Positions 43,034 through 62,083 are shown, counted from the stretch's first letter. The stretch: 64,000 bases of DNA from Fimbriimonadaceae bacterium (GCA_026129685.1 JAHCHO010000001.1:434001-498000); one strand, 5' to 3'. Program-made: numbers and translations. The notes: generated by a model from the sequence alone, not told the origin.

Positions 43034-43876
43034 TTGAACGAAGAACGCAAGAACAAAGCGCACCTTCTGGTCAAGAAGGCTCTCGACGACCTGGCCGACT
43101 CTCTGGAGTCCGGCCGCTCCCAGAACCTGGAGGAGTTCCTCCGCGCGATGGGACGCTTCCACCGCTACTCCCTGCACAACGTCGCGCTCATCACGGCCCA
43201 GAACCCCGAGGCCACCCGGGTCGCCGGTTATCGAACCTGGCAGTCCCTGGGTCGCCAGGTCAGGAAGGGCGAGCGCGGCATCGTGATCCTCGTGCCGATG
43301 GTCTTCCGGAAGAACCCGGACGACCCGAACGACTCGGACGAGTCCCGCGAACGGCGGGCGAGCCGCCGCGAGAACCGCGAGAACGAGTCCGCCCTGGGGT
43401 TCGGCACTGGCACCGTCTTCGACGAGGCCCAGACCGAAGGGAGTCCGCTCCCCGAGATCGGGAAGGTGCGGGGCGATCCCGGCCGTGCCCTGGCGCGGCT
43501 CCGGCTCTTCTACGAGAAGCTCGGCATCGCCCTGACGGAGGTCGCCTCGCTCGGCGGCGCGGTCGGGGTGTCTCGCGGCGGACGGGTCGAGATCGTCTCG
43601 GGTCTGCCGCCCGCCCAGGAGTTCGCCGTGCTGGTGCACGAGCTCGCCCACGAGACCATGCACCGAAACGGTCGGAGCGAGAACCTCACCCGCAAGCTCG
43701 CCGAGCTCGAGGCCGAGGCCGTCTCGTACGCCGTCTGCCGAGGGATCGGTCTCGATCCCGGCACGGCCTCGGCGGACTACATCCAACTGTACCGAGGCGA
43801 CGTCGCGTCCCTCGCCGACTCTCTCGCGGCGATCCAACGCGCCGCCTCCGACGTTCTGACCTGGCTCGATCGCTGA
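43034..43876 (+). CDS. ArdC-like antirestriction protein
   Basis: 280 residues. The N-terminal ssDNA-binding domain of ArdC is seen as RFHRYSLHNVALITAQNP, VAGYRTWQSLGRQVRKGERG and IVILVP. The C-terminal zinc metallopeptidase domain has His-Glu-x-x-His at 202-206 (VHELAHETMH) and a downstream acid in ELEAEAVSYAVC. ArdC proteins bind incoming single-stranded DNA and shield it from restriction during conjugation. Start is TTG 43034 with GAGG eight bases upstream. A strong terminator follows, so it ends a transcript. Confidence 0.85.
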   Translation: MNEERKNKAHLLVKKALDDLADSLESGRSQNLEEFLRAMGRFHRYSLHNVALITAQNPEATRVAGYRTWQSLGRQVRKGERGIVILVPMVFRKNPDDPNDSDESRERRASRRENRENESALGFGTGTVFDEAQTEGSPLPEIGKVRGDPGRALARLRLFYEKLGIALTEVASLGGAVGVSRGGRVEIVSGLPPAQEFAVLVHELAHETMHRNGRSENLTRKLAELEAEAVSYAVCRGIGLDPGTASADYIQLYRGDVASLADSLAAIQRAASDVLTWLDR

Positions 43877-46608: not shown

Positions 46609-48066
46609 TTGTCCACCGCCGAATCCCCCACCGTTCCGTCGTCCTTCGACGACGATGTTCTTCTCCTTTCCACCGGCGTCCGCGATCGGATCCTTGAGCG
46701 GTACCCGGCGCTGGCCGACGTCGCCCTCCGTCGTCTGTTCGCGCACCTGCTCGGCTCGACCTACCGCGACGACGACACCGGTCGGGTCGTCGTGCCGAGC
46801 CGGGTTCTGCAGTCGCTGCGCACCGGTTCGCCGCAGACCCGGCCGCCGTACACCGGGATCGTCCGACGCTTTCGCGCCGACGTGTTCGACTTCGTCCTCA
46901 CGTCGGAGTCCGAGGGACGCTGCCGGTGCCTCGAGAGCCACGCGTGCCCCGCAAGCCTCCTGCGCCGCGTCCGGAGCTCGGCATTCGAGGCCGGCGTCGT
47001 CTCGTTCGTCACGGGCGAACCGCCGAACCCCGTTCCTCGCAACACCCCGGTTCGGCCCGAGAGCGCCGAGGCCCTCGCGTACCTCGAATCGGTGCCGCTC
47101 GAAGCGTACGCCCCGATGGTCGGGCGCCTCGGCTCGATCGTCCGGGATCCCGACCTCGGCGATCACGACCGCCGCGTCCTGGCGCAGATCGCCCGCGATC
47201 CCCGTTCGCGCTACTCCGCCGTCGAGCGCTCCCTCCGCCTGTTTCCGCACCACGGGGCGATGCTGTTGACCCGTGAAGCACGCAAGCGTCTGCTGGCTCC
47301 GTACGGTTCGCTCGACCTGCGGCAGGCTCAACTCGCCATCGTCTCGCGCCTCTGGGACCTTCCGACGCTTCGCTCCCGGCTCGACGATCCGAAGTGGTCG
47401 GTGTGGCGGTACCTTGCCAGAACCCTCCGACGGGACCTCCAGCTTTCCAAGCCCGCCCTGAAGGCCGCCGTCTACACCGTGCTGTTCGGAGGCGGGAACA
47501 AGCGCATCCGCGACGGCCTCTCCAGGGCCGGCTTCACCCGGACCGAAACGAGCCGGTTCCTCGCCGACCCGCTGATCGCCGAGCTGATCGATCGGCGCGA
47601 CCGCGCTCTCGAATCCTTGGTTCGGGGCGAACCCGTCCGCGACGCCTACGGCAACGAGCTCAGCGTCACCGAGGGGGGAAAGCGGGAGCGCCAAGCCCAG
47701 GCCCGATCCGCTCTCGCCTGCCAGGTCCAGTCGTTCGAGTTCCGCGTGATGGACGAGGCCGTGGTCCGGTACTGCTCCGAAACCGACGGTCTCGACATCG
47801 TCGGCATGCTCCACGACGGGGCGTACTTCCGAGCCGAGTCCGTCCCGGCGATGCGTCGGCACCTCCGGGCGATGGAGTCCCGGGTCGCCGAGACTTCCGA
47901 CGCGCTGCTCGGAGTCCGGCTCCGCGTCGAGACCGACCCGGGCGAGCGCCGTGGGCGGACGGCGGGGGTGACGGAGCGACCCTCGATCCTTCCACACCAA
48001 ACCAACGCGAACGATGCGGGAGGAAACGACGCAAAAGCGGCGAATTGTGTCGCCCAAGGTCTGTAA
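46609..48066 (+). CDS. Family A DNA polymerase-like palm protein
   Basis: 485 residues. I see the three DNA polymerase I palm/fingers motifs in the right order. Motif A is around Asp236 ([16 protein letters not shown]). Motif B is Lys281-x3-Lys285-x3-Tyr289-x3-Phe293-Gly294 ([16 protein letters not shown]), which lines up with R754/K758/F762/Y766/G767 of E. coli Pol I. Motif C is His402-Asp403 (GMLHDGAYF). [20 protein letters not shown] helix matches the QGTAADI region. There is no exonuclease domain and the N-terminal 220 residues are unassigned. TTG 46609 has GGAG 10 bases upstream. It ends 2 bases before hsdM. Confidence 0.65.
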
Positions 48067-48068
48067 CC

Positions 48069-49626
<1,558 letters not shown>

Positions 49627-49637
<11 letters not shown>

Positions 49638-50946
49638 CCTGCCGCACGGCACCACGGCGCCCCGCGGACTCTCGCCCACTGAGCAGATCCACTGGCCCCT
49701 CGTCGCGAGTCGAGACCTGTTTGAACTCAAGTATGGGAGGGCACTCGTGGAGTCAATGCGTCGCCCAGGCTCGGTCCCCGTGTACGGGACCAATGGCCGG
49801 TGCGGTAGCCACGATGAAGCGCTCTTCGAGGGGCCGGGCGTCATCATTGGCCGGAAGGGCCAAGGGCCGCTAGGCGTCGAGTGGTCTGAAGATGACTATT
49901 GGGTGATTGACACCGCCTACTCGCTGACTCCTCGTCGGCCGGACCTCGATCTCCGGTACGCGTACTTCCTAATCAAGCACATCGGCCTAAATCACCTCAA
50001 AGACGGCACCTCCAACCCGACGCTGAGCCGGGATACCTTTGGCGCCCAAGCGCTTCCATTGCCACCGCTCGATCAGCAGCGCTGCATCGCCCACATCCTC
50101 GGCACGCTGGACGAGAAGATCGAGCTGAACCGGCAGATGAACGAGACGCTGGAGGCGATGGCGCGTGCGCTCTTCAAGTCGTGGTTCGTGGACTTCGACC
50201 CCGTCCGCGCCAAAGCCGAAGGCCGCGACCCCGGCCTCCCCAAGCCCCTCGCCGACCTCTTCCCCGCCCGCCTCGTCGATTCCGAGCTCGGCGAGATTCC
50301 GGAAGGGTGGGAGGTGGGCACGCTCGGCGAATTGATCGACACGATCAAGGGCCGCTCATACAAGAGCGAGGAACTCGTTGAATCCGATACGGCGCTCGTG
50401 ACGCTGAAGTCCTTTGCCAGGGGCGGTGGCTACCGCCCGGACGGTCTGAAGTCTTTCGCAGGGACCTACAAGCCGGAACAGGTCGTCCAACCTGGTGAAC
50501 TCGTGATCGCATGCACTGATGTGACGCAGGCCGCCGACGTCATTGGGCGCCCAGCGATCGTTCGGGGTACCGGCACCTACCGAAGATTGGTTGCCTCTCT
50601 GGATACGCTGATCGTCCGCCCGCGGGATTCAAGCATGGCTCGGTCGTTCCTCTACTTCCTAGCTGGAACTGAAACGTTCGTTGCCCACACCTATGCGCAC
50701 ACGACAGGCACAACAGTCCTGCATCTGGCGAAAGAGGCCGTGCCTTCCTATAGGTTTGCTCTACCTTCCCCACGACTCGTTCACCAGTTTGACTCGCTAG
50801 CCAGTCCGGCACTTGGCCGCGTACAAGCCTTGGAAGAGGAGTCGGACACAATCGGCGCTCTGCGCAACGCGCTGCTGCCGAAGCTGATCTCCGGTGAGCT
50901 GCGGGTGAAGGATCCAGGCACGTTTATGGAACGGGGGGCGCTATAA
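49627..50946 (+). CDS. hsdS: Type I restriction-modification specificity subunit
   Basis: 439 residues with the two-target-domain layout of HsdS. First target domain about 1-135, then the conserved helix [20 protein letters not shown] followed by [20 protein letters not shown]. The second target domain begins [20 protein letters not shown] and ends with a second helix, [20 protein letters not shown], and [12 protein letters not shown]. It determines the bipartite DNA site. ATG 49627 overlaps the hsdM end. Its TAA stop (50944-50946) overlaps the presumed ancestral start of the next gene. Confidence 0.93.
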
Positions 50947-50996: not shown

Positions 50997-51518
50997 TTGA
51001 TGGTGCTCAGCAGCATCTCGCCGCTCTTCATCCTGTGGGCGATCCGAGGGAACAGCCTCATCCCCGATCGCTGGTTCATCGGTTTCTGCGCCCTGATTGT
51101 CGTCATTCCGAATGCGTTCCTATGGTTGCGCATTTGGACCGCGAAGCAGCAGGCGGACAAGCGCGACCTCGCCGTCGGCACCGCCGACGACCACCGCGAT
51201 CACATCCTCGTCTATCTGTTCGCAATGTTGCTGCCGTTTTACTCGGAGGCCATCGGCACCTGGCGGGACCTGGGCGCGACGTTCGCCGCGTTGGCGTTCA
51301 TCGTATTCCTGTTCTGGCACCTGAACCTGCACTACATGAACCTGCTGTTCGCGGCGCTCGGCTTCCGGGTCTTCACGGTCTATCCGCCGGCCGACGGCAA
51401 CCCGCTTTCCGGCAAGACCCGCCAGGCCCTCATCACCCGCCGCGTGAGCCTGGCCTCCGGCGACCGGATCGTCGCATACCGGCTGAGCGACACGGTGTAT
51501 CTGGAGGCCGAGACATGA
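50997..51518 (+). CDS. kwaA: KwaA-like four-helix membrane protein (Kiwa system)
   Basis: 173 residues as started here, with four membrane helices: LLMVLSSISPLFILWAI, FIGFCALIVVIPNAFLWLRI, HILVYLFAMLLPFYS and FAALAFIVFLFWHLN. A C-terminal soluble part ends IVAYRLSDTVYLEAE. Size, topology and position directly before a DUF4868 gene match KwaA of the Kiwa anti-phage system, in which the membrane protein senses infection. The frame has protein-like sequence upstream (THREGLKAARL) back to an ATA at 50943 that overlaps the hsdS stop; the standard starts are TTG 50997 and ATG 51000. It is coupled to the next gene by ATGA. Confidence 0.7.
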   Translation: MMVLSSISPLFILWAIRGNSLIPDRWFIGFCALIVVIPNAFLWLRIWTAKQQADKRDLAVGTADDHRDHILVYLFAMLLPFYSEAIGTWRDLGATFAALAFIVFLFWHLNLHYMNLLFAALGFRVFTVYPPADGNPLSGKTRQALITRRVSLASGDRIVAYRLSDTVYLEAET

Positions 51519-52420
51519 CGCTGGAGTTCGACCTTGCGAGCGTGACGGTCACGGAGTTTGGCGTGGGCCGGGACGACGGCAACGGGCAGACGTTCGTCGC
51601 CGTGCCGGTCGATACGGACGTGCAAGGCGCGCTGCGCGAGATGGTGCAGGCAACCTGGAAGGCCACGCAGAACGTCGAGGACGGGCCGGCGAAGTACGAA
51701 CCGTCCGAGAAACACGGGAGCACGGAGTACCTCTATCTGCCCCTGGCGGATGAAATGGCGTCCTCCGTGCGGGGGCTGCACGAGGCGACGAATCTGGCGA
51801 TCCAAGGCAGTGCGCTTGATGAACCGGCCGACGTGTTCTGCTACTTCGTGCGGCTGACCGACAAGAAGAATCGGCGCCTGACCGCGCTGCGTCGCGCGTC
51901 GCAGTTCAAGGGGGTTCTGAAGAAGCGCCTGGTCCGCTTCGTCTCCGACGCGCTGAAGCTGATTCCCGACGACGTCTTCAAGCTGGACAGCGACTTCGAC
52001 CTCCTCGTCGACTCGGCCAACGTCCACATCCTGCGGCCCAGCGGTTTCGAGTTCGCGGGCAAACTGCAGCAGGCGATCCTGGAGGCGGTTCCCGAGAACA
52101 TCAAGGCGATCCGAAAGGACCTCGCGTTCGTTGAGTTCGACGGCATCGAGGCCTACGCTGGCCAACGCCCGCGCGCGGCGCGCTATCTCGCCTCGATCCG
52201 GGGGCAGGAAGAAACCAAGAACATCGACAAAGCCTTGCTGAAGAAGCTCTGCAAGCAGACGGGCGTCGAGATCACCGAGTCGAAGGGCAAGGTCGTCATC
52301 ACAGACGGCCACGAGATGGGTTTTCTGGAGGTCCTCGACCGGCGCCGGTACGAGGTGAGCCTCGTGAAGGCGAAGCCCGAACAGTACCGCGCCGCGAGCC
52401 GGAGGAAGATCAATGGCTAG
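51515..52420 (+). CDS. kwaB: DUF4868 protein (KwaB-like)
   Basis: 301 residues. The C-terminal half carries the DUF4868 pattern: LLVDSANVHILRPSGFEFAG, AIRKDLAFVEFDGIEAYA, RAARYLASIRGQEETKNIDK and GHEMGFLEVLDRRRYEVSL. KwaB is the effector of Kiwa and binds DNA or blocks phage replication together with KwaA. The ATG at 51515 overlaps the kwaA stop by 4 bases, and the stop overlaps the next start, so translation is coupled through the operon. Cytoplasmic. Confidence 0.8.
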   Translation: MTLEFDLASVTVTEFGVGRDDGNGQTFVAVPVDTDVQGALREMVQATWKATQNVEDGPAKYEPSEKHGSTEYLYLPLADEMASSVRGLHEATNLAIQGSALDEPADVFCYFVRLTDKKNRRLTALRRASQFKGVLKKRLVRFVSDALKLIPDDVFKLDSDFDLLVDSANVHILRPSGFEFAGKLQQAILEAVPENIKAIRKDLAFVEFDGIEAYAGQRPRAARYLASIRGQEETKNIDKALLKKLCKQTGVEITESKGKVVITDGHEMGFLEVLDRRRYEVSLVKAKPEQYRAASRRKING

Positions 52421-53153
52421 CGCCAGCACGGAAATGGCGCAGAGCGCCGGGGGCAATACCTCGCCCTTCGTCATGCACGGGGCGCGTGACGCAGTGGCCT
52501 CGGGGCTCGTGCACATCGAGCAACAGGTCCGTGCGCTTGAGCTGGCGGTCGCGGAGAACCCCGCGCTCGCATTCGACCTCGCCAAGACGCTGGTGGAGAG
52601 CGTGTGCCGGGTGGTGCTGGGCGAGCGGTCGGTCGCGTTCGACGAGGCGGATGACCTGCCCAAGCTGTTCAAGACGGCGTCGAACCATCTGCCGCTCCTT
52701 CCGGCCTCCGCAAGCAGCGTTGCCGAAACGCGCAGGAGTCTGGCGCAGACGCTGAATGGTCTGAGCACCGCGATTCAGGGCATTTGCGAGTTGCGCAACC
52801 AGTGCGGCTTCGCGTCGCACGGGGCGGGTGTGCCCCGGCCGGCGATGGAGAGCGTGCAGGCGTTGCTGGCCGCCGAGGCCGCCGACACGATCGTCGGGTT
52901 CCTCCATCGCGTGCACCGCCAGGACCGCACGCCGCCGCCGTCGCCGCGCGCGCTGTACGACGCGAACCAGGCCTTCAACGACTCCGTGGACGACACGCAT
53001 GGGCCGATCCGCGTCTTCGAGATCGAGCTTCGGGCCAGCGAGGTCCTGTTCCAGATGGAGCCGGAGAGCTACCGCATCTACGCGGCGGAGTTCGACGAAG
53101 GAGCCGAGGGTATTGAGGGTCACGCAGGCGGCGTGCCGGAGGCCGCACCATGA
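52413..53153 (+). CDS. Abi_C-like (abortive infection C-terminal) protein
   Basis: 246 residues. The central part fits the Abi_C domain: a helix with [20 protein letters not shown], an [15 protein letters not shown] segment, [28 protein letters not shown] and a last helix [18 protein letters not shown]. The RN...HG pattern is typical of HEPN-related abortive infection proteins found inside Type I restriction operons. GGAGGA lies 6 bases before the ATG. The 50-residue C-terminal extension ([20 protein letters not shown]) is acidic. It overlaps kwaB and hsdR by a few bases, making it part of one transcript. Confidence 0.72.
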
Positions 53154-56100
53154 CTGCGCACGGCATCACGGAGTCCGTCGTCGAAGAAGCCGCCCTGGCC
53201 TGGCTGGAATCCGCCGGCTGGCAGGTGGCGCATGGCCCCGACATCGCGCCGGACATACTCAGCGCCGAGCGCCGTGATTACGGCGAAGTGGTGCTTGGCA
53301 CAAGGCTGCGTGACGCGCTCGCGCGGCTCAATCCCGCTCTGCCCGCCGAAGCGCTGGGGGACGCCTTCCGCAAGCTGACGCGTCCCGAAGGCGCGGACCT
53401 GATCCAGCGCAACCGCGCTGTGCACCGGCTGCTGGTGAACGGCGTGACCGTGGAGTACCGCACGCACGAGGGCGAACTCCGCGCGGCGCAGGCGCGGGTT
53501 CTCGATTTCGAAGACCCGTCCACCAACGACTGGCTGGCGGTCAACCAGTTCAGCGTCGTCGAGAACAAGCGAACGAGACGGGCGGACATCGTGCTCTTCG
53601 TCAACGGCTTGCCGTTGGCGGTCATCGAGCTGAAGAACGCCGCCGACGACAAGGCGACCGTCCAGACCGCCTTCCAGCAGTTGCGGACTTACCAGTCCGA
53701 ACTGCCGACGCTCTTCGCGACGAACGTCGTCCTGGTCGCGTCCGATGGGGTCGAGGCGCGAGTCGGCGTCATCGGCGCCGGGCGCGAGTGGTTCAAGCCG
53801 TGGCGCACGGTCTCCGGCGAAGCGCTCGCCGACGCTCACGCGCCGGAGCTTCAGGTCGTCATCGAGGGAGTCTGCGCGCCGGACCGGTTTCTCGATCTGG
53901 CGCGCGACTTCATCGTGTTCGAGGACGACGGCGGCCGCATCGCTAAGAAGATGGCCGGCTACCACCAGTTCCACGCCGTCCGGGTCGCGGTGGAAGAGAC
54001 GCTTCGCGCCACGGAACTCGCTCGGCCAACGAGAGCGGCGGAGGATCGCGGGCGGTACGAGGCTGTCCGAAGGCCGGGCGGCCGACCGGGCGACCGACGC
54101 GTCGGCGTGGTCTGGCACACACAGGGCTCCGGCAAGAGCCTTACGATGGCGTTCTACGCCGGACGGATCGTCCGCGAACCAGCGATGGGGAACCCGACGC
54201 TCGTGGTTCTTACGGATCGCAACGATCTCGACGACCAGCTCTTCGGGACCTTCTCGCGCTGCCAGGACATTCTGCGCCAGCCGCCGGTGCAAGCCGAGAG
54301 CCGACCGCACCTGCGCCAGTTGCTGAGCGTCGCTTCCGGAGGGGTCGTGTTCACCACGATCCACAAGTTCTTCCCCGAGGAGAAGGGCGACCGCCACCCC
54401 TTGCTCTCCGACCGTCGCAACGTCGTCGTGATCGCCGACGAGGCGCACCGAAGCCAATACGACTTCGTGGACGGCTACGCCCGCCACATGCGCGACGCCC
54501 TGCCGCACGCGTCGTTCATCGGATTCACCGGCACGCCGATCGAGTTACAGGACGCGAGCACCCGCGCCGTGTTCGGGGACTACATCAGCGTCTACGACAT
54601 CCAGCGCGCCGTGCAGGACGGGGCCACGGTGCCGATCTACTACGAGAGCCGCCTTGCCAAGCTCGCGCTCGACGAAGCCGAGCGGCCGAGAATCGACCCC
54701 GGGTTCGAGGAGGCGACCGAGGGCGAGGAGGTCGAGCGCAAGGAGCGGCTCAAGTCCAAATGGGCGCAGCTCGAAGCGGTCGTCGGTGCGGAGAAGCGGC
54801 TGAAGCAGATCGCGCAGGACATCGTCGAACACTACGAGGCACGTCAAGAGGCGCAGGACGGCAAGGCGATGCTCGTCTGCATGAGCCGACGCATCTGCGT
54901 CGAGTTATACGGCGAGATCGCGAGGCTACGGCCCGAATGGGACGGCGACGGCGACGAAGCCGGCGCTCTCAAGGTTGTGATGACGGGCTCAGCCTCCGAC
55001 CCACCCGACTGGCAGCGTCACATTCGCAACAAGCCTCGGCGCGAGGAACTCGCCAAACGGTTCCGCAATCCGAAGGACCCCTTCAGGCTCGTGATCGTGC
55101 GCGACATGTGGCTCACCGGGTTCGACGCGCCCAGCCTGCACACGATGTACGTGGACAAACCCATGCACGGCCACGGGCTGATGCAGGCGATCGCCCGCGT
55201 GAATCGCGTGTTCAGGGACAAGCCTGGCGGACTCGTCGTGGACTACCTTGGGCTGGCGCAAGAGCTCAAACAGGCGCTCGCCACCTACACCGAGAGCGGC
55301 GGCACCGGACGCACGGCGCTCGACCAAACCGAGGCCGTCGCGGTGATGCTCGAAAAGCACGAGGTCTGTTGCGGGCTGTTCCACGGCTTCGACCGATCGA
55401 AGTGGACCTCCGGATCGCCGCCCGAGCGTCTCGGGCTGCTCGCACCGGCTCAGGAGCACGTCTTGCGCCAAGAGAACGGGAAGGACCGGTTCGTCCAAGC
55501 GGTCCGAGAGCTGTCCCAGGCGTTCGCGTTGGCGGTGCCGCACGAAGAGGCGATGCGCGTACGCGACGACGTCGGGTTCTTTCAGGCCGTGCGCGCCGTG
55601 CTTTCGAAGCGGGCGCCCGGCGACCAGCGACCTGAGGAAGACCTCGACCACGCGGTGCGCCAGATCATCTCGCGAGCGGTTGCTCCCGAGGGAGTGGTGG
55701 ACGTGTTCGCCGCCGCCGGACTTGAGCGACCCGACATCTCGATCCTGTCCGAAGAGTTCCTCGCCGACGTGAGAGGCATGCCTCACAAGAACCTCGCGGT
55801 CGAGTTGCTGCAGAAGCTGCTACGGGGAGAAATGCGCGCGCGCGGGCTGAAGAACCTGGTTCAGGCGAGGTCGTTCGCCGAAATGCTCGAACAGACCATC
55901 CGCCGGTACCAAAACCGGTCCATCGAGGCGGCCCAGGTGATCGAGGAACTGATCGCGCTGGCCAAGGAGATGCGCGCCGCCGGTGAACGCGGCTCGGAGC
56001 TGGGCCTGTCCGAGGACGAAATCGCTTTCTACGACGCTCTCGAGACGAACGACAGCGCGGTCAAGGTCCTGGGCGACGGGACGCTCCGATTGATCGCGCG

Positions 56101-56287
56101 CGAGCTCGTCGCGACGGTGCGCGGCAACCTCACGATCGACTGGACCCTGCGCGAGAACGTCCGGGCGCACCTTCGGGTCCTTGTCAAGCGCGTTCTGCGC
56201 AAGCACGGTTACCCGCCGGACAAGCAGGAGAAGGCCACCGAGACCGTGTTGGCGCAGGCTTCGCTGCTCTGTGACCAGTGGACGTAG
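53150..56287 (+). CDS. hsdR: Type I restriction endonuclease subunit R
   Basis: 1,045 residues. The N-terminal PD-(D/E)xK nuclease is visible at about 140-165 ([20 protein letters not shown]). A superfamily 2 translocase follows: Walker [14 protein letters not shown] near 322, [19 protein letters not shown] box [13 protein letters not shown] near 427, [11 protein letters not shown], and motif region [17 protein letters not shown] near 655. A C-terminal helical domain contacts the methylase core. Length and motifs are normal and the gene looks intact, unlike hsdM. If the methylase is inactive, this enzyme would lack protection, so either hsdM is rescued or the nuclease is inactive in complex. 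Confidence 0.95.
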
Positions 56288-56290
56288 CCG

Positions 56291-57433
56291 TTGCGTCTCA
56301 GCGGGGTTCCTTTCTTCACGGACTCCTACCATGACCCCGCAGGGACCGGAGCGATCAAGCCGAAGACAGACTCCATGTCTGGTTCCAACCTTTCCTTCGG
56401 GCTTCTGCGCGCCCTTCTCGCCACGAAAAAGAGCGACCCGCCGAGCTCGCCGGCTCCCTCCGAAGTCCTGATGCGCCGAGTCTGGGCCCAATTCAGCGAA
56501 AGACTGCTCGATCCCCCCTGGCACGAGTTCGTCGCCTCCCAGTACTGCATCGCGTACTTCTTCACGGGCGAGGACGGCGAGTTCGAGAACGTCCCCAACC
56601 CGGCTCAGGTACAAGCGCTCGACGAGCTTCGAACGACCGACCGCCAGGGCACCGCAGGCTCGTGCCATCCAAGGTTCAAGCCCATGACCACGGCGGAGCT
56701 GACCTATGCGGCGACCTGCTTCATGAGCTTCCTTACGCTCTGGCTTCTCCGCACAACGAGCAGCCCCGCGATGCCGCCGCCGGATCACGACGCTTGGAAA
56801 CCCGAGTCCGAGACCAAGCCCTTGTCGGCCGCAGACCCCGCATACGCCGCGCGGCTCGCCAACGATCGCACCCTTCTTCACCTGCTGTCCTTCAACATGG
56901 AAGAGGTCGAGCGAAGCCAGGAATGGGGCACCACGCCACGGTTCGAGCGGTACCTGTCCGATATCGAGCGCGCGCGATTCGCCGAATCCTCGTTAGGCTG
57001 GGCGAAGATCGAAACCGCGCTCAGGGACGCGGTTGTAATGATTGAGTCCGTTAAGACTCAGCCGCCTCTCGACGGCCTCGTCACCCTGTTGTCCGCTCGC
57101 GAGCTGCTCGACCGAGCTTGCGACGCCCTTATCGGCGACATCCACGAAGCCGCCGGCCTTGGCTCGCGCTCAGGCAAGAAACCTGTCAGAGACTGGGCCC
57201 TTGAACGGGCTCGCGCGGTGTTCATCGACCGAGTCCTCCAGAAGCCGGTGCCGACTGTAAATGTGAGGAAACTGCTGAAGAATGGCGCGCTGAAGGCACG
57301 CAAGGAGGCTTTCGACGAGGCCGTTCTTCCCACGGACACTCTGGCCCTAGGCCGGCTATCGTCGTTGTTGTTCGACCCGAGGTTCCACCCGACGATCGTG
57401 GCATTTCTGGACACGCGGTTCCCGGTCAAATGA
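56291..57433 (+). CDS. Unknown protein downstream of hsdR, 380 residues
   Basis: I do not recognise the family. A soluble, mostly helical protein with one moderately hydrophobic stretch (CFMSFLTLWLLRTTSSP) that could be buried rather than membrane. Other segments: LLDPPWHEFVASQYCIAYFF, LGWAKIETALRDAVVMIESV, LFDPRFHPTIVAFLDTRFPV. It starts 3 bases after hsdR (TTG 56291; ATG 56375 is an alternative) and may be the last gene of the defence operon, so a defence-associated role is a fair guess. Confidence 0.6.
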   Translation: MRLSGVPFFTDSYHDPAGTGAIKPKTDSMSGSNLSFGLLRALLATKKSDPPSSPAPSEVLMRRVWAQFSERLLDPPWHEFVASQYCIAYFFTGEDGEFENVPNPAQVQALDELRTTDRQGTAGSCHPRFKPMTTAELTYAATCFMSFLTLWLLRTTSSPAMPPPDHDAWKPESETKPLSAADPAYAARLANDRTLLHLLSFNMEEVERSQEWGTTPRFERYLSDIERARFAESSLGWAKIETALRDAVVMIESVKTQPPLDGLVTLLSARELLDRACDALIGDIHEAAGLGSRSGKKPVRDWALERARAVFIDRVLQKPVPTVNVRKLLKNGALKARKEAFDEAVLPTDTLALGRLSSLLFDPRFHPTIVAFLDTRFPVK

Positions 57434-57644: not shown

Positions 57645-57920
57645 ATGAACACCATACCATCGCCCACGCTTGAATCGGTTCTCGCGAGCGCCGAGCAGAA
57701 CGCTAAGGAATCCGGAGACGGATTCCTCGTGCTCCCCGCCTTCTTCGGCGCGAACCGAGTACAGGCCGAGGTTTCGCTCGCCGATCTCCTCGCGATCGGC
57801 ACCGACGTCCAGCTCCAGGACGGCACCAAAGGCAAGCCGCACCTTCGTCGGACTCTCGCCAACGTGCATAGGGGCATTGGGCCGGCCGGCCCGAATCCTC
57901 GCCAAAGAAGGAAACCATGA
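57645..57920 (+). CDS. Partial N-terminal paralogue of the DGQHR-like protein
   Basis: 91 residues. It aligns with residues about 118-190 of the next gene product: ESVLASAEQNAKESGDGFLV with EKAVALAEAAGKGRLVLELL, then VSLADLLAIGTDVQLQDGTK with VPVSALLRVGTDTLRQEKQQ, after which the basic segments RRTLANVHRGI and KRFLAMLAKGEDI correspond. It stops before the DGASR motif, so it is a truncated duplicate or a small stand-alone regulator. ATG 57645 starts the frame. The stop overlaps the next ATG as ATGA. A TAGAGCAC/GTGCTA repeat at 57572-57594 upstream may be an operator. Confidence 0.6.
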   Translation: MNTIPSPTLESVLASAEQNAKESGDGFLVLPAFFGANRVQAEVSLADLLAIGTDVQLQDGTKGKPHLRRTLANVHRGIGPAGPNPRQRRKP

Positions 57921-59431
57921 AGCTCGACGACACGTTCGCGACGAACCACGACCAGACCCACGGCCCGGTCCTCGACCACCTCGCCTCGCGAGAGGCCACG
58001 ACAGCACCAGTGGTGCGCTTGACGCAAATGAAATTCTCCGACGGCGGGTCCGACCAGGACTCGATCACAAAAATCAACTCCGTCGCCGATGCGGCGACTC
58101 CTCCGATCCACGTGGCGGACAATCAGCCCCCCGACGAGCTCGAACACAAGCTTCGGGCATGCACAGAGGGCAGCGGTTCTGGCGTGCTTGACATCCCGGG
58201 CATCGAAGGTCCGGCGTTCGCCGTCCAGCCGGAGCAACCGGCCGTGTCCGCGACCTGGGTCGAGGCCAATGAGAAAGCGGTGGCTCTCGCCGAGGCTGCC
58301 GGCAAGGGTCGCCTGGTTCTTGAGCTCCTGTTCGCCGGGGGACGGACCGTCGTCAGCGTTCCGGTGAGCGCTCTTCTGCGCGTCGGTACCGATACCCTCA
58401 GGCAAGAGAAGCAGCAGATCAAGGGCTCGGTTCGCGCTCCGCGCGACGCTGCCGCCAAGAGGTTCCTCGCGATGCTCGCCAAGGGCGAGGATATCGGCGA
58501 GCTGACGGTGGAGGCCGAGCCGCAGATCTTCCGGGTCGAGAACTCGAATATCGGCTTCGCGGTCCTTCGAATCGAAGACTCCGTCTTGATCGACGGGGCG
58601 TCGCGCCTTCAGGCTCTCAAATGGCGCGAGGTCGAGTCCAAAGGCTCTCACGCCGACGAGACCGTCGCCGTTTGTCTTCGCCAACCATCGGCTGCCAGCC
58701 GCAACGAGGTCGCCATCGCGATCAACCGAGGCAAGCCCTACTCCAGAGCCGACAGCCCTCCGAGCCCGTCGGTGCCGGGAGCGGAGGCGGTTCACGCCCT
58801 TCTCAAGGACAAGGCCATCGGCCCGCGCATCCGACCCTTCTCCGGCGGTCCCGCGCGAGACGCGCTAGGACCGCGCTGGTCTCGTCCAACACTGGAAGAC
58901 GCATACGCGCGGCTCAAAGGCGAGGGCGTGCGGGAGGACGCCTGGCCGAGATTCCAGGAGCTGCTCGGCCAGACCGTTAAGCTCCTTGGGGCGAGCGAGA
59001 AGGGCAAGAACGTCTTGGACGGCACGAAGGGCCTTCTCATCCTTGAGCGAGTAGCCGGAACTAAGGGTGAGTTGCCCAAGCTGGCCGACTGGGACCTCGA
59101 TCCGCAAGGGGGAGTCTGGAACGGCATCGTTCGGCCGGCCTTCGACCTCGCAGCCGGCGTCGACGCGGCGATCGCCACGCTCTCCCAAACGACCGCTCCC
59201 ACCGAGCCGAGCCCGGACGCGCAGACCGCGCTCGATTCGTCCGCCACCATGGCGGAGGTCGCCGCCGACGGGATCCAACTCACGTTCCGGCCAACCCAAA
59301 CACGCGAGATCGAACGACCGGTGGGTCGCCCGAACTCGCGCCACGATTCTGGCGGCTCATCAGCCGTCGCAACGATTCGCCCATCAGATCGAGACACGGT
59401 TCCGACAGCCGGGCGAAGGTCATCACTATGA
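57917..59431 (+). CDS. DndB/DGQHR-like (ParB-related) protein
   Basis: 504 residues. The core at about 170-275 follows the DGQHR/DndB plan: a basic helix (APRDAAAKRFLAMLAKG), a strand VLRIEDSVLIDGASRLQALK where DGASR (226-230) replaces DGQHR, a strand DETVAVCLRQPSA, and a helix with the conserved Asn-Arg of AIAINRGKPYS. DndB represses or tunes DNA phosphorothioation genes; DGQHR proteins occur in several DNA-modification loci. The 110-residue N-terminus is low complexity and the C-terminus after 450 is disordered. It is coupled by ATGA on both sides. Confidence 0.5.
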   Translation: MKLDDTFATNHDQTHGPVLDHLASREATTAPVVRLTQMKFSDGGSDQDSITKINSVADAATPPIHVADNQPPDELEHKLRACTEGSGSGVLDIPGIEGPAFAVQPEQPAVSATWVEANEKAVALAEAAGKGRLVLELLFAGGRTVVSVPVSALLRVGTDTLRQEKQQIKGSVRAPRDAAAKRFLAMLAKGEDIGELTVEAEPQIFRVENSNIGFAVLRIEDSVLIDGASRLQALKWREVESKGSHADETVAVCLRQPSAASRNEVAIAINRGKPYSRADSPPSPSVPGAEAVHALLKDKAIGPRIRPFSGGPARDALGPRWSRPTLEDAYARLKGEGVREDAWPRFQELLGQTVKLLGASEKGKNVLDGTKGLLILERVAGTKGELPKLADWDLDPQGGVWNGIVRPAFDLAAGVDAAIATLSQTTAPTEPSPDAQTALDSSATMAEVAADGIQLTFRPTQTREIERPVGRPNSRHDSGGSSAVATIRPSDRDTVPTAGRRSSL

Positions 59432-60468
59432 TTGAGAATCTCAATCCAATCAATTCGGGGCGTTTCGCTCCCAACGGCGGGCGTCCGTTAACCAAATCGC
59501 TCACTCGCGCGCTCGACGTTGCCGTCGAACCCGTTCCCGACAAGAAGCCGAAGACGAGCAAGGGCGCCATGTACCGGTCAAAGGTGGACTGGTGCGACTG
59601 CACCTGGTCGCCGATCGTCGGCTGCATATGGTGCTGTCCGGAGTGCTGGCGGTGTTTCGCCACGCGCCTCCAGGTCAGAGGCGACCGCAAGCGCACGATA
59701 AAACTCACTTCAAAGCAACTGCTTCGCTTGACGGACGGCCAGGGAGTCTCCAGCATAGAGCGGTTCACTGGCTGGACCGGCGCGGTCAAACTCCGCCGCG
59801 ATCGTCTCCGGGCGCCCTTGCGGGACAAGGCTCCCAAGCTTATCTTCGTGAACTTGGTGAGCGACATCGCCTACGGTCCCGAATTCGAAGAGAAGAACTA
59901 CGAGGGTTTCCTCTCGGAGTTCGAAGGCTTCCGACGCGAGATCTTCGGCGTGATCGAGAAGGCTCACTGGCACACGTTCCAGATTCTGACGAAGAGGCCG
60001 CAGCTCTTCCTCGAGCCCACCATCGCGGACCCGGGCAAGACCGTCGCGGAAAGCCTGCCGTGGCCGCAGAACCTCTGGTTCGGCGTCTCGGTCGGCACGA
60101 AGAAGTCGGTCTCGAAGATCGACGATCTCAGGAAGATTCCGGCGAAGATCCGGTGGATTTCGTTCGAGCCTCTCTTGGAGGACCTCCTCAAACTCGATCT
60201 GACCGGGATCGACTGGGTCGTGATCGGCGGGGAATCGGGCAAGTCCGCCCGCGAGTTTCCGCTCGACGCGGCGCGCTCGATCGTCGCCCAATGCCGGGAG
60301 CAGGGCGTCCCGGTCTACGTGAAACAGCTCGGAGACGACTGGGCGTCTCGCCTCCAACTCGGCCGCAAGGCCCATGTCCTGGATGAATGGCCGTCCGACT
60401 TGGACGACCTCAAAATCCGGGAATGGCCGAACGGCTTCGACCGCTCCAACAACGGGTACATGAAGTGA
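59428..60468 (+). CDS. DUF5131 (phage Gp37/Gp68-like) Fe-S protein
   Basis: 346 residues. The key motif TWSPIVGCIWCCPECWRCFA carries Cys66, Cys73 and Cys76 with the same spacing as the DUF5131 signature GC-x6-C-x2-C, thought to hold a radical-SAM-type iron-sulfur cluster. Further family blocks are FVNLVSDIAYGPEFEE, HTFQILTKRPQLF, LWFGVSVG, RWISFEPLLEDL, DWVVIGGESGKSAREF and VPVYVKQLGDDW. A 50-residue N-terminal extension is extra. The reaction is unknown; base or DNA modification is a guess from the DndB-like neighbour. ATG 59428 overlaps the previous stop. Confidence 0.85.
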   Translation: MIENLNPINSGRFAPNGGRPLTKSLTRALDVAVEPVPDKKPKTSKGAMYRSKVDWCDCTWSPIVGCIWCCPECWRCFATRLQVRGDRKRTIKLTSKQLLRLTDGQGVSSIERFTGWTGAVKLRRDRLRAPLRDKAPKLIFVNLVSDIAYGPEFEEKNYEGFLSEFEGFRREIFGVIEKAHWHTFQILTKRPQLFLEPTIADPGKTVAESLPWPQNLWFGVSVGTKKSVSKIDDLRKIPAKIRWISFEPLLEDLLKLDLTGIDWVVIGGESGKSAREFPLDAARSIVAQCREQGVPVYVKQLGDDWASRLQLGRKAHVLDEWPSDLDDLKIREWPNGFDRSNNGYMK

Positions 60469-60659
60469 ACAACACGGACGACTGTGTCAACAAAATCATC
60501 TCTCCCCTGATGACCGCGACCGAAGCGGCGGAGTACCTCCGCATCGGCCGAACGAAAATCTACGGACTCCTTGAATCCAAGGCGATCCGATGCAAACGCA
60601 TAGGAAAGTCCATTCGGATCCTGCGGTCCGATCTCGAGAAATTCCTCGAGAAAGGGTGA
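60465..60659 (+). CDS. Excisionase-type helix-turn-helix protein
   Basis: 64 residues from GTG 60465 overlapping the DUF5131 stop as GTGA. The sequence MTATEAAEYLRIGRTKIYGL then KAIRCKRIGKSIRILRSDLE is a textbook MerR-like HTH_17/AlpA domain. Such proteins act as recombination directionality factors or as small regulators on integrative elements. Its place right before the convergent integrase supports an Xis role; its coupling to the DUF5131 cluster also allows a regulatory role there. ATG 60510 is an alternative start. Confidence 0.85.
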   Translation: MNNTDDCVNKIISPLMTATEAAEYLRIGRTKIYGLLESKAIRCKRIGKSIRILRSDLEKFLEKG

Positions 60660-60679: not shown

Positions 60680-60711
60680 GAGGGGGCGAGTCCGCAAGGG
60701 CTCGCCCCCTC
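60680..60711. terminator. Bidirectional hairpin between the HTH and integrase genes
   Basis: GAGGGGGCGAGTCC and GGGCTCGCCCCCTC around a GCAA loop, 14 stem pairs including one G:T. It overlaps the integrase stop and follows the HTH stop by 20 bases. The loop and its closing CC/GG pairs resemble the terminator after ardC. Confidence 0.85.
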
Positions 60712-61954
60712 ACTCTATGAGGGCCATGGCGTCCTTCAGGTTGCCCTCCGTCGCCTCGGAGTAGTAAGTCAGGGTCGTCTGAATCTGCGCGTGGCCGGCC
60801 AATCGGCTCACCACGGTCACGGGCACCTTCAGGTCGTTCAGCAGGTGGGAGGTCCAGAAGAACCGCAGGCTGTGGCTGGTCGGGTCGGGTTGTCCCGGAA
60901 CCCCGCAGAGTCCCGCCTTTTCGAAAGCGGCCCTCAACTCTCTCTGCCCCCTGCGAGGTTCCATCCATCCTCCTTCGACCGTACGAACGACCGGTTGCTT
61001 CGGCTTCAGCGTCGCGGCGAAGTGGCGCACCGATTCCGGCATCGGTATCTCCCGCCGCGCGTTCTTCGTCTTGAGTTCGACAGGGGCCAAGCGGGACGGC
61101 TCACCAAGGGTTTCAATCCGCTGCAGCTGCCTTCGGACGCGCACCACGTTACCGGACAGATCGAGATCCTCCGTTCTGAGCCCAAGAGCCTCACCGATCC
61201 GCAAACCCAGTTTCGTCTGCATCAGCACCAATGGGTAGGCGATCGTGCCCTTGGAGACTTCCAGGAGCCTCTCGACCTCAGTTGTCGACAAGAGCCTCTT
61301 TTCGGGCTCGTCCTCGCTGTTTTCAGCCGAGGCCAGCTCTCTCTTGCGACCCGACTCGATGGCCTCCCAGCGCATCTTCAGTCCGATCGCAGGGTTCGAC
61401 GCTATCAGGCCGCACTCGACGGCAATGCTGAGCCCAGAACTGAGCGCGGTCAGGATTCGCTTCACGCTGAGCACCGCCAGCTTCGCAGGACGATTCGCCG
61501 ACCCCCCTCCGCCTGAACGCGCGACCTCCTTGTCAGCCAGCGCATACAGGAACTTGCGCAGCGTGTTCGCGGTCAAGTTCGTGAGCCTGATCTCGCCGAG
61601 CTCGGGGATGATGTGTCGCTTGACCACCTGGGCGTAGTCGGCGGCCGTCGCCGGGACGCGCTTGGGCCAGTGCGTCGAAACGCACTCCTCAAGCCACGCG
61701 CCAAGGGTGTAGCCAGTCTCGACGACCACCAAGCTCTCGCGGAACTCGGCGCCGCCTTCCAAGATGTTGAACTCCTCGTAGAACTCGTTCCGCTTCTTCC
61801 GCGCTTCAGCCTTCGCGTGGCACCGCGCCTGCTTTCGGAACTCCTCGCCGGATTCGCGTCTCAGGCGGACGTTGACCAGATACAGGCCCTTGTGGGGGAC
61901 GATGTCGGCGTCCTGCGTCTTGGGGCGGCGAGGCCTAAAAACACTGCTCGGCAT
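60710..61954 (-). CDS. int: Tyrosine recombinase / integrase
   Basis: 414 residues. An N-terminal arm-binding basic region and a core-binding domain (TLGAWLEECVSTHWPKRVPA) precede the catalytic domain. Catalytic residues are seen at Arg252 (GLRIGEALGLR), His361-x-x-Arg364 (HSLRFFWTSHLL), His388 (LAGHAQIQTT) and the nucleophile Tyr397 or 398 (TLTYYSE). A Lys near 295-297 (ELKTKNARREI) completes the set. The gene starts 55 bases from the tRNA-Thr 3' end, the normal place for an integrase acting on that site, and appears intact. Confidence 0.95.
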   Translation of the reverse strand: MPSSVFRPRRPKTQDADIVPHKGLYLVNVRLRRESGEEFRKQARCHAKAEARKKRNEFYEEFNILEGGAEFRESLVVVETGYTLGAWLEECVSTHWPKRVPATAADYAQVVKRHIIPELGEIRLTNLTANTLRKFLYALADKEVARSGGGGSANRPAKLAVLSVKRILTALSSGLSIAVECGLIASNPAIGLKMRWEAIESGRKRELASAENSEDEPEKRLLSTTEVERLLEVSKGTIAYPLVLMQTKLGLRIGEALGLRTEDLDLSGNVVRVRRQLQRIETLGEPSRLAPVELKTKNARREIPMPESVRHFAATLKPKQPVVRTVEGGWMEPRRGQRELRAAFEKAGLCGVPGQPDPTSHSLRFFWTSHLLNDLKVPVTVVSRLAGHAQIQTTLTYYSEATEGNLKDAMALIE

Positions 61955-62008: not shown

Positions 62009-62083
62009 TGGAGCCCTCGACGGGAATCGAACCCGTGACCTCCTCTTTACCAAAGAGGTGCTCTACCTCTGAGCTACGAGGGC
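62009..62083 (-). tRNA. tRNA-Thr (anticodon GGT)
   Basis: The minus strand folds as a cloverleaf: acceptor GCCCTCG/CGAGGGC, D-arm GCTC-AGAGGTA-GAGC, anticodon stem CCTCT/AGAGG around TTGGTAA, T-arm CGGGTTCGATTCCCG, then T and an encoded CCA. The gene is intact and serves as the likely integration target; its 3' end faces the island. Confidence 0.95.

Follow-up and report, generated by a model that had tools for sequence, protein, structure and literature searches.

Proteins of the DUF5131 family are found widely in phages, plasmids and genomes, and to our knowledge neither they, nor TcmP, nor a pair formed by a DndB-like protein and a DUF5131 protein have a known substrate, activity or phenotype. 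DUF5131 is half of two candidate defence systems of the PADLOC collection, PDC-M30 and PDC-M41, in which a TcmP-type protein is component A and DUF5131 is component B; the two genes are often adjacent or overlapping and are carried on plasmids and phages. PDC systems are mostly unvalidated (PMC12988326). The locus described here is like these systems in its DUF5131 component B, its overlapping pair of genes and its place on mobile DNA. It is unlike them in that a DndB/DGQHR-like protein fills the A slot instead of TcmP and in that the pair is joined to the excisionase-integrase (xis-int) end of an element. Proteins of the DndB type have been placed in the ParB superfamily (PMC10853773), one DndB-like protein bound ATP and GTP (PMC12704722), and DndB of Salmonella is a regulator of dndBCDE that binds its own promoter (PMC4507180). 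In contrast to the dnd setting of that family (PF14072, TIGR03187), no dnd operon is present here. The full member of the family is encoded on another element of this genome (the second element below), and the 504-aa protein of the locus, which carries DGASR and lies below all cut-offs, aligns with the family at its core motif region.

The window, by which we mean the whole stretch of DNA analysed, is 64,000 nucleotides from a Fimbriimonadaceae bacterium (GCA_026129685.1 JAHCHO010000001.1:434001-498000). Its plus strand contains at positions 57645-60659 four open reading frames, each consecutive pair overlapping by exactly 4 bp (in order ATGA, ATGA and GTGA), just as an earlier note on this sequence had described (Table 1). 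The fourth gene, xis, has a GTG start within its overlap with the DUF5131 gene. The earlier note was right to call its product an HTH protein and missed its specific identity, which is the excisionase of an element (TIGR01764, E 6e-14; PF12728, 7e-15; Tn916-Xis, 8e-5) beside an integrase and a tRNA-Thr gene. A generic regulator was dropped as the identity of gene 4 in favour of an excisionase on these matches. A promoter scan found none. We infer that the DUF5131 and DndB-like pair is co-translated with the excisionase, and because of this coupling the pair would be made when the element is regulated or excised.

Table 1. Features of the window and, in the last two rows, of the second element of the same genome.
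Feature	Position	Strand	Evidence or remark
46-nt fragment identical to the 3' end of tRNA-Thr(TGT) of the genome	41909-41954	-	tRNA 3' motif search
ArdC N-terminal-domain (anti-restriction) protein	43034-43876	+	PF08401 4e-12
hsdM	48180-49637	+	profile/PADLOC
hsdS	49621-50946	+	profile/PADLOC
KwaA	50997-51518	+	PADLOC 4e-92
KwaB	51518-52420	+	PADLOC 4e-143
Abi_C/AbiJ-like	52413-53153	+	profile/PADLOC
hsdR	53150-56287	+	profile/PADLOC
Gene X, 380 aa (TTG start uncertain)	56291-57433	+	related to 656-aa gene of second element
91-aa ORF (gene 1)	57645-57920	+	without family match; 4-bp ATGA overlap with gene 2
504-aa divergent DndB/DGQHR-like protein (gene 2)	57917-59431	+	hhalign to DGQHR profile
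DUF5131 (Gp37/Gp68-type) protein (gene 3)	59428-60468	+	PF07505
Excisionase-type HTH_17 protein, Xis (gene 4)	60465-60659	+	TIGR01764, PF12728
Tyrosine integrase, convergent with cluster	60710-61954	-	PF00589 4e-14; PHROG integrase 3e-41
tRNA-Thr(GGT), integration site at int end	62009-62083	-	ARAGORN
DGQHR/DndB protein of second element	L005 11641-12825		PF14072 5.6e-26, 91.8 bits vs cut-off 29.1
Gene X relative, 656 aa, apparent internal repeat	L005 12872-14842		

Two more copies of the window's integrase exist in the genome, at 58-60% identity; the window copy abuts tRNA-Thr(GGT). A simple direct-repeat search for attachment ends gave nothing, and the far end came up only via the tRNA 3' motif, as a 46-nt fragment in the same orientation as tRNA-Thr(GGT). 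This fragment matches tRNA-Thr(TGT), not GGT, and shares too little with the GGT tRNA for a simple direct repeat. Judged from its sequence it is the probable far attachment site, and its match suggests that this end of the element was derived from a different tRNA-Thr isoacceptor. Taken with the genes at the other end, this points to an integrative element of roughly 20 kb at a tRNA-Thr gene, with the cluster as its xis-int (excision) end. That an element residing at tRNA-Thr(GGT) should have a TGT fragment at its other end also suggests a jump between isoacceptor sites.

The cluster is placed between the defence cargo of the element and its xis-int end. The mobile-element and defence setting proposed earlier is thus borne out, as xis, integrase, tRNA-Thr(GGT) and defence cargo are all present. 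The Kiwa pair (KwaA, KwaB) and then an Abi_C/AbiJ-like gene, at 50997-53153, lie inside the type I restriction-modification operon, between its hsdS and hsdR genes. Elsewhere in the window, at 46609-48066, a 485-aa protein without a confident family has parts that resemble family A DNA polymerase by eye. Gene X had no family match in the profile libraries, and in the 291 genomes of the phylum it matched its own genome only.

By its profile match (PF07505, E 6e-55, 186.8 bits against a cut-off of 28.9), gene 3 is certainly a DUF5131 gene, and its product also matches PADLOC PDC-M41B (8e-52) and PDC-M30B. The three-cysteine signature noticed earlier reads C66-X6-C73-X2-C76, and all three cysteines are invariant in an alignment of 19 sequences. 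The canonical radical-SAM motif CX3CX2C is absent from the protein, the spacing here being CX6CX2C. Divergent gut homologues (L087-L124, rSAM_mob_pairA-like) have the canonical CX3CX2C at the same aligned cysteine positions, which links DUF5131 to the radical-SAM superfamily. The DUF5131 protein is homologous over its C-terminal half to rSAM_mob_pairA itself (TIGR04471, a mobile-element radical-SAM pair protein), with 72 bits, which is well short of the 355 bits of the equivalog cut-off.

An AF2 model of the DUF5131 protein made from the 19-sequence alignment (pLDDT 73.8) has a partial TIM-barrel, radical-SAM-like fold. With VIA-align its best match was spore photoproduct lyase (SPL; Z 11.9, rmsd 3.0 Å over 194 residues), and the top 19 rows were all radical-SAM enzymes, including lipoyl synthase (LIAS) and viperin (Z 9.8), in agreement with the likeness to radical-SAM enzymes that the earlier note had mentioned. 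The model shares with SPL, viperin and lipoyl synthase a barrel fold with three cysteines close to the barrel's N-terminal end, and differs from them in cysteine spacing (CX6CX2C versus CX3CX2C) and in having about 9% identity. Plain Foldseek of the model against the PDB gave no hit that reached E 0.001, and a sequence search of the PDB with both alignments gave nothing significant. Because the plain Foldseek search was not significant, we base the fold assignment on the aligner together with the three invariant cysteines, and because of the CX6CX2C spacing we call the protein radical-SAM-like and not a canonical member.

The earlier note had read the product of gene 2 as a DndB/DGQHR-like core with a variant DGASR motif. 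The 504-aa reading frame has a coding-like codon-position GC (0.69/0.51/0.77), and the antisense ORF fits no better. DGASR is found at residues 226-230 (about 58592-58606) with INRGKP downstream; DGQHR itself is absent, its Q and H having been lost. A distant relationship to DndB/DGQHR proteins held up, but a match in family libraries did not: the protein had no match in Pfam, NCBIfam, PHROGs or PADLOC and was below every family cut-off. For profile-profile comparison we built a DGQHR profile from 12 DGQHR proteins, against which hhalign gave the 504-aa protein a score of 36.0 (P 5e-4), as compared with 25.0 for the best of 200 shuffles and 27.2 for the best of 220 unrelated proteins. The score was 32.6 once the DGQHR protein of the same genome was left out of the profile. 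The alignment pairs LIDGASRLQAL of the 504-aa protein with VVDGQHRL, and INRGKPYSRADSP with the INR/K region that follows the DGQHR motif. An N-terminal block of 23 residues (IHVADNxPPDExExKL) has 74% identity between the 504-aa protein and the DGQHR protein of the second element. Scores against the TcmP and DUF5131 profiles were 18.7 and 13.1, and the former ruled out TcmP as the identity of the protein. Single-sequence AF2 gave a pLDDT of 34, too low to speak for or against a ParB/Srx-type fold. On the strength of these comparisons we take the 504-aa protein as a very divergent DndB/DGQHR relative in the DndB slot, and as no member of the family by profile or motif. The 91-aa ORF also had no family match in the profile libraries. 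A stretch of 49 aa in it shares 35% identity with residues 125-173 of the longer protein (E 9e-6, a single comparison), and the ORF is probably a truncated partial duplicate of that part.

The same arrangement is found in another, diverged element of this genome (the second element; contig G000:C4, L005). Its integrase, 58% identical to that of the window, abuts tRNA-Thr(TGT), and facing it are xis (61% identical), a DUF5131 gene (35%), a DGQHR gene and the 656-aa relative of gene X (BLASTP E 8e-7 over 76 aa, a single comparison), beyond which lies a type I HsdM-like gene. The order X, DndB-like, DUF5131 and excisionase, facing the integrase, is therefore common to both elements. The DGQHR protein of the second element is by profile a true DndB-family member, with DGQHR intact (TIGR03187, 5e-20, 72.3 bits against a cut-off of 58.9; Table 1). 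Its stop overlaps the DUF5131 start by 1 bp, and DUF5131 and xis overlap by 4 bp in both elements. The 3.9-Mb genome has one PF14072 gene only and two DUF5131 genes only, both in this slot. A DUF5131 tree placed the two copies on long branches and did not unite them as sister sequences, which means that the slot may have been refilled. Beside the HsdM-like gene of the second element, at L005 16339-17995, a DUF4411 PIN-domain gene overlaps an HTH/IrrE-domain gene, a probable toxin-antitoxin pair.

Among the 291 genomes of the phylum, 78 have DUF5131 and 22 have DGQHR, and the two adjoin in this genome only. The search beyond the phylum consisted of one genome scan with two sequence patterns and of plasmid, phage and viral collections, and adjacency of DndB and DUF5131 was not found in other genomes by any of these routes. 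Conserved adjacency, which the earlier note had named as a check on its proposal, was thus not seen in the other genomes searched but recurs within this one, since the second element has a true DndB gene overlapping DUF5131, then xis and integrase. Relatives of the 504-aa protein or of the second-element DGQHR protein gave no match in viral contigs and plasmids, and the same search among phages gave one weak Salmonella DGQHR match. In all, 336 plasmid and 151 phage records match the DUF5131 protein of the second element. The commonest partner of DUF5131 found elsewhere is TcmP, which was 19 of the 34 DUF5131 neighbours scanned and lay 500 bp or less from DUF5131 in 38 of 131 loci from all sources. 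Eight of 14 annotated plasmid and phage DUF5131 loci have TcmP, and two more have a gene annotated as 'methyltransferase' that fits either PDC-M30A, a TcmP-type model, or the TcmP profile itself. In this genome TcmP (TIGR04474) had no match; a DndB-type partner in its place suggests that DUF5131 works with interchangeable partners. We found no description of the DndB and DUF5131 pairing in the open-access literature searched, and no paper on DUF5131 function in the literature searched. Within that literature, the earlier proposal of a module that has not been described stands for the pairing and not for its DUF5131 half, which is already in PDC-M30 and PDC-M41 with TcmP.

The reading to which we incline, tentatively, is that the cluster is a DndB-partnered variant of the TcmP/DUF5131-type candidate module at the excision end of the element, its purpose most likely being defence or self-protection. 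Defence is favoured because of the cargo of the element and the PDC assignment of DUF5131. The DUF5131 protein would be a radical-SAM enzyme with a predicted [4Fe-4S] cluster on the three invariant cysteines, acting on a nucleic-acid or nucleotide substrate, and the DndB-like protein would be its NTP-binding partner with a ParB/Srx fold, taking the place that TcmP has in pairs of the PDC-M30/M41 type. Element and host would be defended, or would protect themselves, against phage or competing DNA. Recurrence of the slot in the second element (integrase 58%, xis 61%, DUF5131 35%, a true DndB, gene X E 8e-7) supports this reading, as do the radical-SAM-like model, the absence of TcmP from the genome and the ATP and GTP binding of a DndB-like protein. 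Several points count against it: the pairing occurs in one genome only among those searched, the 504-aa protein is without the Q and H of DGQHR and below every cut-off, the two DUF5131 copies do not group in the tree, plain Foldseek gave no significant PDB match, and PDC systems are mostly unvalidated. A more specific proposal, that an SPL-like radical-SAM enzyme modifies or repairs DNA or nucleotides under a DndB-like nucleotide switch, is made with the excisionase and protects the extrachromosomal DNA of the element, seems distinctly unlikely. The likeness of the model to SPL does not establish DNA as the substrate. Still, the structure nearest to the DUF5131 model is a DNA-acting radical-SAM enzyme, and this makes for a biochemical hypothesis that is concrete and testable.

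The main rival, because of the coupling to xis, is that the pair works in the excision, maintenance or transfer of the element, for example by protecting or processing the excised circle, and not in anti-phage defence. In both elements DUF5131 has its 4-bp overlap with xis and an adjacent integrase, while the flanking defence cargo differs. The survey of 131 DUF5131 loci bears on this role from both sides: this xis was matched in the two loci of the same genome only and an integrase within 4 kb in only 6, a restriction that fits a mobility role here, but it also means that DUF5131 usually has neither this xis nor an integrase close by. The pair is missing, too, at a third integrase of this clade, although so is xis. 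We regard a mobility role as possible but on the whole unlikely. By analogy with Salmonella, where DndB represses dnd, the DndB-like protein might instead be a nucleotide-responsive repressor or activator of the xis operon, with DUF5131 as a co-regulated passenger enzyme. Promoter binding by Salmonella DndB (PMC4507180) fits this, and in both elements the DndB-like gene is upstream of xis in one overlapping gene string. The DGQHR motif is, however, only partly kept in the 504-aa protein and neither DndB-like protein has a recognised DNA-binding domain, and we consider such a regulatory unit unlikely.

Loss of Q and H, the partial 91-aa duplicate and the lack of a family profile match would also be expected if the DndB-like gene of the window had been duplicated and had degenerated, leaving only DUF5131, xis and int functional. 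Such decay appears quite unlikely, as the frame of 504 codons is intact with coding-like codon-position GC, the 4-bp overlaps are kept and the N-terminal block is strongly conserved. That the locus makes a DNA phosphorothioate or 7-deazaguanine (Dpd) modification is very improbable. The DndB and DpdB profiles weakly match the DGQHR protein of the second element, but with scores of 30 and 24 against equivalog cut-offs of 328 and 300, respectively. The genome, which is 99% complete, had no match to DndC and no DndD over the cut-off, with one weak sub-cut-off DndD match far off on the contig. Phosphorothioation is unlikely for this reason, and a Dnd or Dpd modification locus was rejected.

The tentatively favoured module of DndB-like protein and DUF5131 is not found at the third integrase, which sits at tRNA-Thr(CGT) (G000:C11, L073 14350-18854) with no xis, DUF5131 or DndB-like gene beside it. 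Near this integrase we observed an IS256-like transposase and, at about L073 14350-15950, a CRISPR array with the repeat GTTTCCGGCGTGTGCCGGGGGCTATGGATTGAAAC. The three integrases of this clade sit at three tRNA-Thr isoacceptor genes (GGT, TGT and CGT).
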